In this document: piece after piece, positions 508 through 63,982 of the stretch
Position numbering within the stretch: position 1 is the first letter of the stretch
Layout: each line of letters opens with the position of its first letter
Assembly: GCF_018613155.1 (NCBI RefSeq)
Contig: NZ_JAGGQU010000013.1
Coordinates: 62,001 to 126,000, forward strand
Direction of reading: 5' to 3'
DNA length: 64,000 nt
Source: Bacillus sp. ISL-55
GTDB taxonomy: Bacteria; Bacillota; Bacilli; Bacillales; Cytobacillaceae
The notes under the pieces: generated by a model
The model's input: the letters and a program-made list of their open reading frames with translations, nothing else
What the model was told of the DNA's origin: nothing
The model's database searches: none
Translations under genes and position numbers: made by a program

Positions 508-752
508 GAAAAGCGGAAGCGCCTTGGTCAGCCCCGACAAGCGCTGGAGGGCTGACCAGTGAAATCGTTCTTTGACTTCATTGGGCAGACCGAAATCGAA
601 AAGCGGAGGCGACTGTCCAACTCCGACAAGCGCTGGAGGGCCTGACAGCGAAGTCGGTTTTTGAGTTCATTGGCAGGACCGAAACGTCTCGAGGAGTTAG
701 GAGCCACAGCTAGACAAGCGTCTCGAGGGGCTAGGTGCTGAAGCTAGACAAG
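508..752 (+). repeat. Compound copy of a dispersed Bacillus-type repeat (family A)
   Basis: One unit starts at 508 (gaaaagcggaagcgccttgg) and a diverged second unit at 597 (gaaaagcggaggcgactgtc). Both contain the shared core ccgacaagcgctggaggg. The tract ends with two short copies of ctcgagg-n-gctag-type sequence and agctagacaag. Related copies occur at 14322, 33640, 40782 (reverse) and 46992. The tract fills most of the 343 bp between the EcsC-like gene and ackA, and I see no gene in it. Confidence 0.85.
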
Positions 753-765
753 CTTTATCACCACA

Positions 766-3360: not shown

Positions 3361-3563
3361 CTATCGGACACTTACACTGCTTTTTGCCTTCTGTTTGTCC
3401 GATAGAGCCTTCCTATCGGACACTTCCAACGCTTTCCGCCTTCTGTTTGTCCGATAGAGCCCTTCTATCGGTCACTTCCAACACTTTCCGCCTTCTGTTT
3501 GTCCGATAGAGCCTTCCTATCGGACACTTTTCCTGGTCCCCGCTTCACGTTTGTCCGATAGGG
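3361..3563. repeat. Tandem dyad-repeat array, 52 bp period, four units
   Basis: Units begin at 3361, 3413, 3465 and 3517, an exact 52 bp step. Each starts with ctatcggaca and ends with tgtccgatag, separated by about 25 nt. The third unit has one arm mutation (cggtca). The right arm of one unit and the left arm of the next also pair across a 7-nt loop, so two alternative folds exist. The array lies between tpx and ytxK. A short ggggctgaat tandem (about 3318-3345) precedes it. A 52 bp step cannot encode a repeated peptide. Confidence 0.93.
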
Positions 3564-24401: not shown

Positions 24402-24664
24402 TAAAAAACGCCCCTGCAATAAATGCAGGGGCGCAGTATGCGCGGTACCACCCGGCTTGAAAACAAAATAAAACATGTCTTCCACTCAATAAAATAACGG
24501 TTAACCCGTCCGCGGCTACTGATGAATATGTTTCACTGCGGCGCTCGGGGAGGTAATTCATCCTTCTGTTTGTACCGGCTCACAGCGGCCGCCGGCTTTC
24601 TGGAACATTGACAGAAGCACTACTAATTCCCTTCAAAGCTTTTTACTATAAAGTTAATAAAGCA
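24402..24664 (-). ncRNA. Tyrosyl T-box riboswitch leader of tyrS
   Basis: On the minus strand the T-box core TGGTACCGCG (24450-24441) is followed by a terminator stem cgcccctgca with tgcaggggcg (24409-24418 and 24424-24433) and a T-run (24408-24403). Upstream, a candidate specifier codon UAC (24574-24572) lies in the context CCGG-UAC-AAAC. Uncharged tRNA-Tyr would stabilise the antiterminator. This leader accounts for most of the 436 bp between tyrS and the penicillin-binding protein gene. Confidence 0.92.
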
Positions 24665-39070: not shown

Positions 39071-39376
39071 AAACGGATTGACTTTGCTTACATAAGGGTT
39101 GCTTTCGGCTTGTACGGGACCCTTATAGAAGCGGATTGCCTTACATATGGGTCTCTTTCAACTGGAACGGGACCCTTATAGAGGCGGATTTGCTTACATA
39201 AGGGACTCTTTCGACTGGAACGGGACCCTTATAGAGACGGATTTGAACGCATAAGGGGCTCTTTCGACTGGAACGGGACCCTTATAGAGGCGGATTTAAC
39301 CGCATAAGGGTCCCTTTCGCCTTGAACGGGACCCTTATAGAGGCGGATTTGACCGCATAAGGGCCTCTTTCCAATA
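39071..39376. repeat. Tandem dyad-repeat array, 53 bp period, five full units plus a partial
   Basis: Full units begin at 39116, 39169, 39222, 39275 and 39328, an exact 53 bp step, preceded by a partial unit from 39071. Each unit has gggacccttat and then ataagggtccc-type arms about 18 nt apart, with a nested gcgg...ccgc pair. The unit at 39275 folds perfectly in both ways: within the unit, and with the next unit. The array lies in the 798 bp gap between ytxG and the aminopeptidase gene (divergent). The rest of that gap shows the sigma-B site and no gene. Confidence 0.95.
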
Positions 39377-50956: not shown

Positions 50957-51102
50957 TTGGTGACCTTTTTTCTATGATTCGGATTTTCAGGACACTAATA
51001 CGCTTCATTGATGACCTATTTTTCCATTATCCGAATTTTTAGGGCACCAATACACCTCATTGGTGACCTGTTTTTCCATTATCCGAATTTTTAGGGCACC
51101 AA
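50957..51102. repeat. Tandem dyad-repeat array, 51-52 bp period, three units
   Basis: Units begin at 50957, 51008 and 51060 (ttggtgacc or ttgatgacc). Each ends with gggcaccaa or gacactaa, so ttggtg and caccaa form arms. Between units cacaat-type arms pair across a 7-nt loop (caccaat with attggtg). The last two units are nearly identical. It lies between the DUF84 gene and the lipoprotein gene, in a 401 bp gap with no other gene. Confidence 0.85.
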
Positions 51103-54227: not shown

Positions 54228-54339
54228 CTTGCATCCCCCTTTTTTACTTGATTGTAACACTAGGATTTTTAATTTTTAAATAATTCATCTTGTTATTGCT
54301 AAAAAAACAGTAATTAGTGGTGCGGTTTTTCAAAAAAAT

Positions 54340-54450
54340 TTATTGGCGAAGTTCACAATTTTATTGGCGAAAATCTTATTTTATTGGCGATATCACAGGT
54401 TTATTGGTGGAAATTTGATTTTATTGGCGGTTTTCACAATTTTATTGGCG
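54340..54450. repeat. Tandem repeat of ttattggcg, 20-21 bp period, six units
   Basis: The motif ttattggcg (one copy is ttattggtg) occurs at 54340, 54361, 54381, 54401, 54421 and 54442. The 11-12 bp between copies are mostly different. It lies in the gap between ytnP and the trmB terminator. The step of 20-21 bp is about two helical turns. Confidence 0.9.
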
Positions 54451-54502
54451 AACTGGGAAATTCCCTCGCTTTTTTTCCAATTAAGGTGGTATTTTTTCCA
54501 TA

Positions 54503-61607: not shown

Positions 61608-62543
61608 ATGAGAGTCGTTAACAATATTGCTTCATTAATTGGAGAAACCCCACTTGTAAAATTGAACAAATTGGCGCCAGAGGGAGGTGCAGCGGTATAC
61701 CTTAAGCTAGAATACTTCAACCCTAGCAAAAGTGTAAAAGACAGGGCAGCGTTCAACATGATTGTTTCTGCCGAAAACGAAGGAAAGCTGAAACCTGGCT
61801 CTACGATCATTGAGCCCACCAGCGGCAACACAGGCATTGGCCTCGCCATGAACGCTGCAGCAAGAGGCTACAAAGCGATTCTAGTCATGCCGGACACGAT
61901 GACAGAAGAGAGAATCAATCTTTTAAAAGCGTATGGAGCAGAAGTCGTGCTCACTCCTGGCGACGAAAAAATGCCTGGTGCGATCAAAAAGGCGGAAGAA
62001 TTAGTAACAGAGATTCCCAACAGCTTTATGCCGATGCAGTTTGAAAATGGAGCGAATCCAGACGCCCACAGGCAAACAACAGCAAGAGAGATTATCGAGG
62101 CGATGGAAGAATTGAAAAAGCCGCTCAGCGCATTCGTGGCTACCGCTGGAACCGGCGGGACAATCACCGGTACAGGCGAAGCTCTAAAAGAAGAGTACCC
62201 TGACCTTGCAGTACACGTTGTTGAGCCGGCCGGGTCGCCTGTGCTCTCCGGCGGCAAGCCCGGAAAGCATAAACTCGTCGGCACAAGTCCAGGCTTCATC
62301 CCAAAAATCCTCAACCAGGATGTATATGAAAAGATCCATAAAATCGAGGATGAAGATGCTTATGAAACGGCACAAAGACTGGCAAAAGAAGAAGGTATCC
62401 TAGTCGGTCCATCATCCGGAGCCGCTTGCTTCGCCGCCATCAATGTCGCCAAGGTCCTAAAGCCCGACGAAGTCGTCATCTGCATTGCCTGTGACACAGG
62501 AGAAAGATATCTATCCAGTGATTTGTTCAAATTTGAGGATTAG
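61608..62543 (+). CDS. cysK: Cysteine synthase (YtkP type)
   Basis: PLP enzyme that makes cysteine from O-acetylserine and sulfide. The 311-residue protein has the PLP lysine in P-S-K-S-V-K-D-R-A near residue 43, the phosphate loop T-S-G-N-T-G-I near 71 and G-T-G-G-T-I near 178. It corresponds to B. subtilis YtkP, a paralogue of CysK with the same 311 residues, so the true substrate may differ from CysK. ATG 61608 follows AAGGAGG. It is a single-gene unit. Confidence 0.93.
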   Translation: MRVVNNIASLIGETPLVKLNKLAPEGGAAVYLKLEYFNPSKSVKDRAAFNMIVSAENEGKLKPGSTIIEPTSGNTGIGLAMNAAARGYKAILVMPDTMTEERINLLKAYGAEVVLTPGDEKMPGAIKKAEELVTEIPNSFMPMQFENGANPDAHRQTTAREIIEAMEELKKPLSAFVATAGTGGTITGTGEALKEEYPDLAVHVVEPAGSPVLSGGKPGKHKLVGTSPGFIPKILNQDVYEKIHKIEDEDAYETAQRLAKEEGILVGPSSGAACFAAINVAKVLKPDEVVICIACDTGERYLSSDLFKFED

Positions 62544-62550
62544 TCGTGAA

Positions 62551-62582
62551 GAAAACTCGCCATTGTGATGGCGAGTTTTTCA
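62551..62582 (+). terminator. Terminator of the cysteine synthase gene
   Basis: Stem aaaactcgcca (62552-62562) with tggcgagtttt (62569-62579), followed by a T-run. Confidence 0.88.
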
Positions 62583-62665
62583 CTTTAAAGAGGATATGAA
62601 ATAGATACGTTTTGACGTTTTAGTACCTTATCCTTTGCGTGCCCCGGGTAGCTTTTTGCTTGAAT

Positions 62666-63030
62666 GAGACCCTTATGCAGGCTTTGCGCGTCACATAAGG
62701 GTACCTTTCCGACTGAACGAGACCCTTATGCAGGCTTTGGGCGCCACATAAGGGTACCTTTCCGATTGAATGAGACCCTTATGCAGGCTTTGCGCGTCAC
62801 ATAAGGGTACCTTTCCGACTGAATGAGACCCTTATGCAGGCCTTGGGCGTCACATAAGGGTACCTTTCCGACTGAATGAGACCTTTATGCAGGCTTGATA
62901 CACCACATAAGGGTACCTTTCCGACTGAATGAGACCCTTATGCAGGCTTTGCGCGCCACATAAGGGCACCTTTCCGATTGAATGAGACCCTTATGCAGGC
63001 TTTGGGCGCTACATAAGGGTACCTTTTTTA
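62666..63030. repeat. Tandem dyad-repeat array, 53 bp period, seven units
   Basis: Units begin at 62666, 62719, 62772, 62825, 62878, 62931 and 62984, an exact 53 bp step. Each has gagacccttat and ataagggta-type arms 18 nt apart, followed by cctttccgactgaat. Arms and period agree with the array at 39.1 kb. It lies in the 584 bp convergent gap between cysK and speD. A few single-base substitutions occur, for example acctttatg at 62881-62889. Confidence 0.96.
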
Positions 63031-63055: not shown

Positions 63056-63100
63056 AAAAAGACTGCAGACAAACCATTTATAAATAGTTCGTCTGCAGTC
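63056..63100 (-). terminator. Terminator of speD
   Basis: Outer stem gactgcagac (63061-63070) with gtctgcagtc (63091-63100) and an inner AT stem, followed on the minus strand by TTTTTAT. It resembles the hairpin at the right end of the IS element. Confidence 0.8.
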
Positions 63101-63127
63101 TGTAAAATATCTCAGCCACACGCTTTT

Positions 63128-63982
63128 TTACTCGTTGTTTTCCATTTCTTCTTCATCATCCTCAAAAATCGTACCAGAATGGAGTGTCACTCCTGACACG
63201 ATTTCTTCCATTTCAGCTTGGATTCTCTCGGTGATTTCTTCCCGTTCTTCTGGTGAAAGTGACTCCTTTGTATAACCGAATAGATAATTATCCAAGTCAA
63301 ATTCTCTTAGCTTGCACTTTGTATGGAAGATGTTTTCCTGGTACACATTGATATCGACCATATCGTATTGTTCTTTTACATTTTCCGGGATGTAATTTTG
63401 AATCGAGCTTATGTCATGATCGATGAACAACTTGTTGCCATCTTTGTCCCTCGTGAATCCCCTTACCCTATAATCAATCGTCATGACATCTGTTTCGAAG
63501 GAGTGAATCAGGTAATTCAAGGCTTTCAATGGCGTAATCTCCCCGCAAGTGGAGACATCGATATCGGCACGGAACGTACTGATTCCTTCATCAGGATGGA
63601 ATTCAGGATACGTATGGACGGTGATGTGACTTTTATCAAGCTGTAAGACTACATTATCAGGAAGCGGTCCAGGCGACTCATCATATGCTTCATCAGGAAC
63701 CTCGACGACCGGTCCTTCAGATACTAAAATCGTCACACTTGCACCCTGCGGGACATAATCCTGCTTGGCCACATTCAGTACATGGGCCCCGATAATGTCG
63801 GAAACATTCGTAAGTATTTTCGTCAGACGATCGGCACTATACTGTTCATCAATATATTCAATATAAGCTTCGCGCTCTTCTTTTGTTCTCGTATAACAGA
63901 TGTCATACATATTAAAACTTAATGATTTCGTCAGATTATTGAATCCATGCAATTCTATATGCTGTTCAGAAGTGAATTTCAT
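63128..63982 (-). CDS. speD: S-adenosylmethionine decarboxylase proenzyme
   Basis: Pyruvoyl-dependent enzyme that makes decarboxylated SAM for spermidine synthesis. The 284-residue proenzyme is of the larger E. coli type. It probably self-cleaves in [10 protein letters not shown] near residue 115-124 at the serine, giving the pyruvoyl group; the downstream C-G-E-I-T-P holds the conserved cysteine near 147. A Glu-rich tail ends the protein. ATG 63982 has AGGGGG. It converges on cysK. Confidence 0.95.

Follow-up and report, generated by a model that had tools for sequence, protein, structure and literature searches.

Why should seven copies of one 53-bp unit stand in exact register in the gap between the convergent genes cysK and speD, and what might they do there? 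The array lies near one end of the window, by which we mean the whole 64,000-nucleotide stretch of Bacillus sp. ISL-55 analysed here, part of a 4.5-Mb draft genome (Table 1). The exact step of the seven units, already pointed out in a preliminary description, was confirmed by TRF (period 53, 6.9 copies, score 606), by direct reading and by a mismatch search, which gave seven CCCTTATG arms, one of them reading CCTTTATG, and seven CATAAGGG arms, each stepping by 53. Every unit thus holds two inverted half-sites, CCCTTAT and ATAAGGG, with a gap of 18 bases inside the unit and 21 between units, and we agree that an arm can pair inside its own unit or with the next one. The flanking genes score above the NCBIfam cut-offs for cysteine synthase A (TIGR01139) and adenosylmethionine decarboxylase (TIGR03331), and the non-coding array is placed in their gap between two terminators, as had been proposed; the speD terminator was found by a scan and that of cysK by eye. 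The units themselves were considered as intrinsic terminators and rejected, since on reading the sequence no T-run follows the arms. In an Rfam search of the window the only match above the gathering score was a T-box leader, none falling on the array, and the array had no match in the plasmid and phage collections.

Table 1. Features of the window, in window coordinates
Feature	Position	Strand	Basis
Imperfect interspersed repeat	508-753		
GGACA-family array, period 52, same class with other arms	3361..3561	.	TRF
T-box leader	24424-24645	-	Rfam RF00230, 140 bits
Second CCCTTAT-family array, period 53, in a divergent gap	39083..39371	.	TRF, DNA search of own genome
Array with third arm type, TTGGTG/CACCAA, period 52	50957..51102	.	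TRF
Array of a 10-base motif at 20-bp steps	54339-54452		
cysK, left neighbour, 3' end faces array	61608..62543	+	TIGR01139 above cut-off
cysK terminator-like hairpin with T-run, precedes array	62552..62579	+	by eye; absent from terminator scan
Array of seven 53-bp units	62661..63026	.	TRF, direct reading, mismatch search
speD terminator-like hairpin, opposite side of array	63060..63101	-	terminator scan
speD, right neighbour, 3' end faces array	63128..63982	-	TIGR03331 above cut-off

The array is not unique, as it would have been had it occurred once only. A DNA search of its own genome returned 24 matches, which merged into the cysK-speD array and 15 further places with the same arms and spacing. 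Loops and spacers are alike within an array and differ between arrays, while CCCTTAT/ATAAGGG and the spacings stay constant. When the order CCCTTAT-ATAAGGG-CCCTTAT was searched with free gaps (5-35 and 8-38 bases), the same genome gave 134 matches and the reversed control none, and because of this difference a chance origin of the arm spacing is excluded. The gaps were exactly 18 and 21 in 127 of these 134 matches, and across the genus the exact spacing was found in 1668 of 1783 CCCTTAT matches, summed over genomes. Within the genus, matches occur in 16 of 21 genomes (15 of the 20 besides this one), with counts per genome from 0 to 249, and those with exact spacing in 15; among the 25 genera searched, the CCCTTAT geometry is limited to this one genus (15 of 193 genomes). 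The named records with repeated 53-bp matches, among the matches listed, come from Bacillus sp. ISL strains and from species of Mesobacillus, and Mesobacillus is accordingly the genus to which we assign these genomes. Records titled Chryseobacterium sp. ISL-80 (L075, L104, L112, L143 and others) also carry CCCTTAT 53-bp arrays, otherwise a Mesobacillus feature, and this label, which names a genus of Bacteroidota, is probably wrong.

The orthologous gap could be followed through the whole genus, in which cysK adjoins speD in 21 of 21 genomes. Twelve congeners carry an array there, with 1-18 correctly spaced arm pairs and species-specific loops, and in the other nine the gap is without one. Far from being random in length in relatives, the units show no drift: the inner spacing was exact in 73 of 74 cases (searched within 20-30 bases) and the outer one in 61 of 64 (searched within 24-32 bases). 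These observations bear on the possibility that the arrays are a neutral satellite, functionless and grown from ancestral units by slippage or unequal crossing-over. A satellite of this kind could account for the homogenised units within arrays, for a copy number between 1 and 18 pairs and for the array-free gaps at this locus, but not for arms and spacing that remain constant while the loops diverge. An imperfect interspersed repeat elsewhere in the window (Table 1; GACAAGCGCTGGAGGGC...GACTTCATTGG...) resembles the sequence that the congener G010 has in its cysK-speD gap; this repeat type is a different dispersed element, able to occupy the same kind of gap.

Constant size with variable sequence is the mark of a published class. 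In its accessible portions, the study of Subirana & Messeguer 2021 (PMC8161180) describes Bacillus tandem repeats of 52 nt, constant in size, variable in sequence and of unknown function, and as far as that portion defines the class the cysK-speD array belongs to it. The class comprises at least four units of 51-53 bp, falling within a genome into several families that differ in sequence but not in size, outside coding sequence, and with presence or copy number that varies among relatives. Here the period is 53 with 6.9 copies. Several families share the size in a 464-kb sample of the genome (400 kb fetched plus the window), which contains period 50-53 arrays with many arm types, including CCCTTAT, GGACA, TTGACAGCTTT and TTGGTG, as well as classes of 20-42 bp. 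The array sits in a gap, and in stretches from twelve genomes, this one included, periods of 51-53 were found in 28 of 53 intergenic arrays versus 0 of 11 intragenic ones; the arrays of relatives vary as described above. The published repeats likewise have periods of 51-53 and short characteristic sequences, often also present in reverse in the same repeat, and vary between strains. Moreover, Table 1 of that paper lists 82 repeats of B. selenatarsenatis common to B. boroniphilus and B. subterraneus, and these three are species of the genus that carries the CCCTTAT arrays. What we add to the class, judged against the accessible parts of the literature, are the half-site spacing, the A/T phasing, gene-orientation statistics and a covariation test; we found none of its structural features (A/T phase, spacing, placement) in print.

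The GGACA family shows that fixed spacing is not peculiar to one set of arms. At fixed gaps of 25 and 17 bases it is present in 122 of 193 genomes, which span 16 of the 25 genera of the family, the control giving 0 in all 193, and outside the family in only 3 of 295 Bacilli genomes, all three from one other family. When two of the gaps were left free and only the third was kept constant, 870 of 931 matches in three genomes had the exact spacing (one control match). The intergenic arrays outside the 51-53 range cluster at periods of 20-21 and 39-42 in the same twelve genomes, and the periods of the 39 intergenic arrays with at least 2.5 copies, from families that are not independent, fit a spacing of 10.4-10.6 bp (R 0.91-0.92).

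Several further arrays deserve mention in their own right. One in the window repeats the 10-base motif TTTATTGGCG at 20-bp steps, which is two helical turns, and represents the 20-21 nt class that PMC8161180 also describes; in the accessible portion of that paper, two helical turns are noted for that class only. Arrays of 20-42 bp with other motifs occur elsewhere in the genome too. G012, a congener with neither CCCTTAT nor GGACA arrays, has its own set of 52-bp arrays, built on different arms and reaching 17.9 copies (L283 10739-15872), found in a scan covering all but one (L276, 2.7 kb) of 20 fetched stretches. In the own genome, L202 10755-11315 is a mosaic array in which CTTCGGACA units give way to CTTCGGACAGCTTTT units, a hint that one arm type can evolve into another. 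In records of Bacillus sp. P14.5 (L107, L125, L148) and Paenibacillus (L096, L124, L130, L150), palindromes like AATAAGGGGAATTTTCCCCTTATT recur at steps of about 50 bp; they represent yet another arm type, whose layout differs. Variable-gap matches in these and other records were not used, since on reading their spacings and palindromes differ.

What unrelated arm families have in common is a helical rhythm of A/T. Over 74 CCCTTAT arrays (398 units) the A/T peaks lie near positions 4.5, 15.5, 26.5, 37 and 47, and over 37 GGACA arrays (104 units) near 7, 17, 27, 37 and 49; at the centre of the CCCTTAT loops A and T together make up 84-87 per cent, no base being fixed. At non-arm positions the five-per-unit phasing reached z 15.2 in the CCCTTAT arrays, z 15.7 in the GGACA arrays and z 13.3, with its peak at 10.5 bp, in the 30 GGACA arrays of other genera alone, although these z-values overstate independence, arrays within one genome being related. 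In all three sets 0 of 2000 shuffles reached the signal outside the arms, and in both families it exceeded the shuffles in each loop alone as well. When 31 arrays of period 51-53 were taken together regardless of their arms, the fifth harmonic (z 12.5) was the only one to rise above the rest (next z 1.9), and it did so too in the 15 of them with neither CCCTTAT nor GGACA arms (z 6.2; next 1.8). Note that the fifth harmonic is the largest in 19 of the 31 and another harmonic in 12, and that in CCCTTAT arrays it is equalled in strength by harmonics 3, 7 and 10. Array-free intergenic 52-mers had a five-per-unit signal of 0.257 versus 0.230 when shuffled, and arrays 0.793; array-free coding 52-mers had almost none. 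Literature searches did not find this five-turn phasing in print, including in the accessible portions of PMC8161180 and PMC6749651. One period and one A/T rhythm common to unrelated arm families again count against a neutral satellite.

A wedge model predicts that this rhythm would curve the DNA: predicted curvature exceeded that of shuffled units in 25 of 31 arrays, or 28 of 31 with other shuffles. The figures were 0.747 for the cysK-speD array, 0.652 for the array at 39083 and 0.988 for the array at 3361, which is predicted to be straight. As expected, the model with mirrored wedge directions gave no curvature effect (13 of 31) and did not pass the A4T4/T4A4 control.

The arrays are also placed in a particular way relative to genes, and the suspected bias to convergent gaps was found. 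CCCTTAT arrays with genes on both sides (n=55) lie in 25 convergent, 27 co-oriented and 3 divergent gaps, and GGACA arrays (n=27) in 11, 16 and 0, compared with 29, 159 and 49 among 237 baseline gaps. The enrichment in convergent gaps (Fisher p 1.6e-7 for CCCTTAT, 5.6e-4 for GGACA) and the depletion from divergent ones (p 0.006 and 0.004) refer to arrays from many genomes and a baseline from the own genome only, with gene calls from a simple purpose-made caller, and the counts leave out 19 of 74 CCCTTAT and 10 of 37 GGACA arrays, which have one side without a called gene. This enrichment is the third observation that a neutral satellite does not predict, and we consider that explanation unlikely. 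Between the 3' end of a facing gene and the array, a terminator-like hairpin was present at 66 of 105 ends versus 5 of 105 shuffled segments, and before the array at gene starts in 4 of 38. The terminators at facing gene ends agree with the earlier proposal that the array lies outside the main transcripts.

Do the arms then act by pairing, either in RNA (a 3' UTR, a small RNA or a sponge) or as extruded DNA? The arms are perfect inverted repeats, and on neither strand did any of 100 shuffles of the cysK-speD array fold equally well (z -5.3 and -7.1). Moreover, transcription has been reported for the 52-nt repeats of B. coagulans, according to the accessible part of PMC8625621. Nevertheless, the loop bases of the CCCTTAT family do not covary: comparing complementarity within and between arrays gave z 0.3 for the front (beyond the arms) and z -4.1 for the back (inside the unit), and arm changes were one-sided in 182 cells and matched on both sides in 3, cells that overlap in that both dyads share half-sites. 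The GGACA family behaves differently, since the outer arms of one array match each other far more than those of different arrays do (z 8.7), while its inner gap gives z -0.8. In G000 the first outer positions matched at 0.89/0.67/0.92 within arrays versus 0.71/0.49/0.26; in G040 the fourth outer position was mismatched oftener than chance (0.17 versus 0.42), and one array there has an identical first-position mismatch in all nine units listed (in these single-genome comparisons some arrays are split in two). The statement that arms never covary thus held for CCCTTAT and failed for the GGACA outer arms, whose matching within arrays lowers our claim against pairing; pairing, or different proteins for each arm type, may possibly lie behind it.

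These results also bear on the suggestion that a transcript could switch between two chains of hairpins. Its foldable arms stood, and the match of the GGACA outer arms leaves room for it. In the CCCTTAT family the switch is weakly supported, because the loops are no more complementary within an array than between arrays and arm changes are mostly one-sided; nor do hairpins account for loops in which A/T recurs every 10.4-10.6 bp. For the pairing explanation as a whole, the systematic mismatches of G040, the fixed loop length and A/T phase, which pairing does not predict, and the terminators that precede the array weigh on the other side, and we regard it as rather improbable.

The arrays also recall two known repeat systems. 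As in BIME-2/REP elements, palindromic units alternate here in clusters that lie outside genes; their sequence is unrelated, and BIME-2/REP units differ in size from the 52-53 bp units of our arrays. A RAYT/REP-like system that copies palindromic units would explain dispersed extragenic palindromes, and Y1_Tnp proteins were found in 18 of 21 congeners. G016, G019 and G020 gave no Y1_Tnp match, yet they carry GGACA arrays (161, 39 and 159 matches per strand), and G016 and G020 carry CCCTTAT arrays as well. Because Y1_Tnp is missing from these three array-bearing genomes, we think it very improbable that the arrays are the product of a mobile element, and filing them as BIMEs was rejected on the same three genomes. 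Constant and variable parts alternate regularly, which is reminiscent of CRISPR; in contrast to CRISPR, the loops of an array are near-identical rather than unique spacers, the constant parts span 7-8 bases and there are many arrays per genome.

The reading that we favour, with confidence that is evenly balanced, is that the arrays are platforms of phased, curved double-stranded DNA for a DNA-wrapping protein. A unit of 52-53 bp would make five helical turns, so that all units show the same face, each presenting a pair of inverted half-sites (ATAAGGG in this array) a constant distance apart, and the A/T-rich steps, which recur at 10.4-10.6 bp, would, in the model, bend the DNA in one plane. 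A putative bending or wrapping protein could then bind unit after unit, forming a curved complex beyond the gene terminators, and the array itself would have been amplified by local tandem duplication of its units. By analogy, such a complex may be a chromosome-organising or topology-handling site, working as BIME-2 does in E. coli. As far as the sequence can tell, a site for a protein or a chromosome-organising factor, one of the functions put forward in the preliminary description, would be the best-fitting class.

Which protein this might be is a separate matter. In the accessible portion of PMC6379681, the E. coli gyrase motif has a phased 10-bp variation in G/C, and gyrase sites are overrepresented in BIME-2; gyrase binding would be a candidate feature of our arrays. 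That gyrase or topoisomerase IV is the binder is a special case that we judge quite doubtful: gyrase is universal, yet GGACA arrays are so rare in Bacilli outside the family. A nucleoid protein is another candidate. Several points speak against the platform itself. Within an array the outer arms of GGACA units agree with each other, the pattern expected of a hairpin or cruciform, and a group of proteins that differ in specificity is the less simple alternative; the fifth harmonic is not the largest in every array, and the array at 3361 is predicted to be straight; and nine congeners lack an array at this locus. More tentatively still, the arrays may be satellite-like DNA selected for a physical property and not for sequence, in which unrelated arms would offer the same continuous curved path, five turns per unit, to a single conserved protein that wraps DNA (gyrase, topoisomerase IV or a nucleoid protein) in convergent gaps, absorbing transcription supercoils or setting domain borders.

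Finally, the constant size of the 52-nt repeats stands as an enigma in the accessible portion of PMC8161180. The common helical A/T rhythm, the fixed half-site spacing and the placement at convergent 3' ends turn it into a testable question, namely which protein reads curvature and phase. If the platform reading is true, some bacteria would have DNA-wrapping sites built in by the hundred, and these would shape the chromosome in the stretches between genes.
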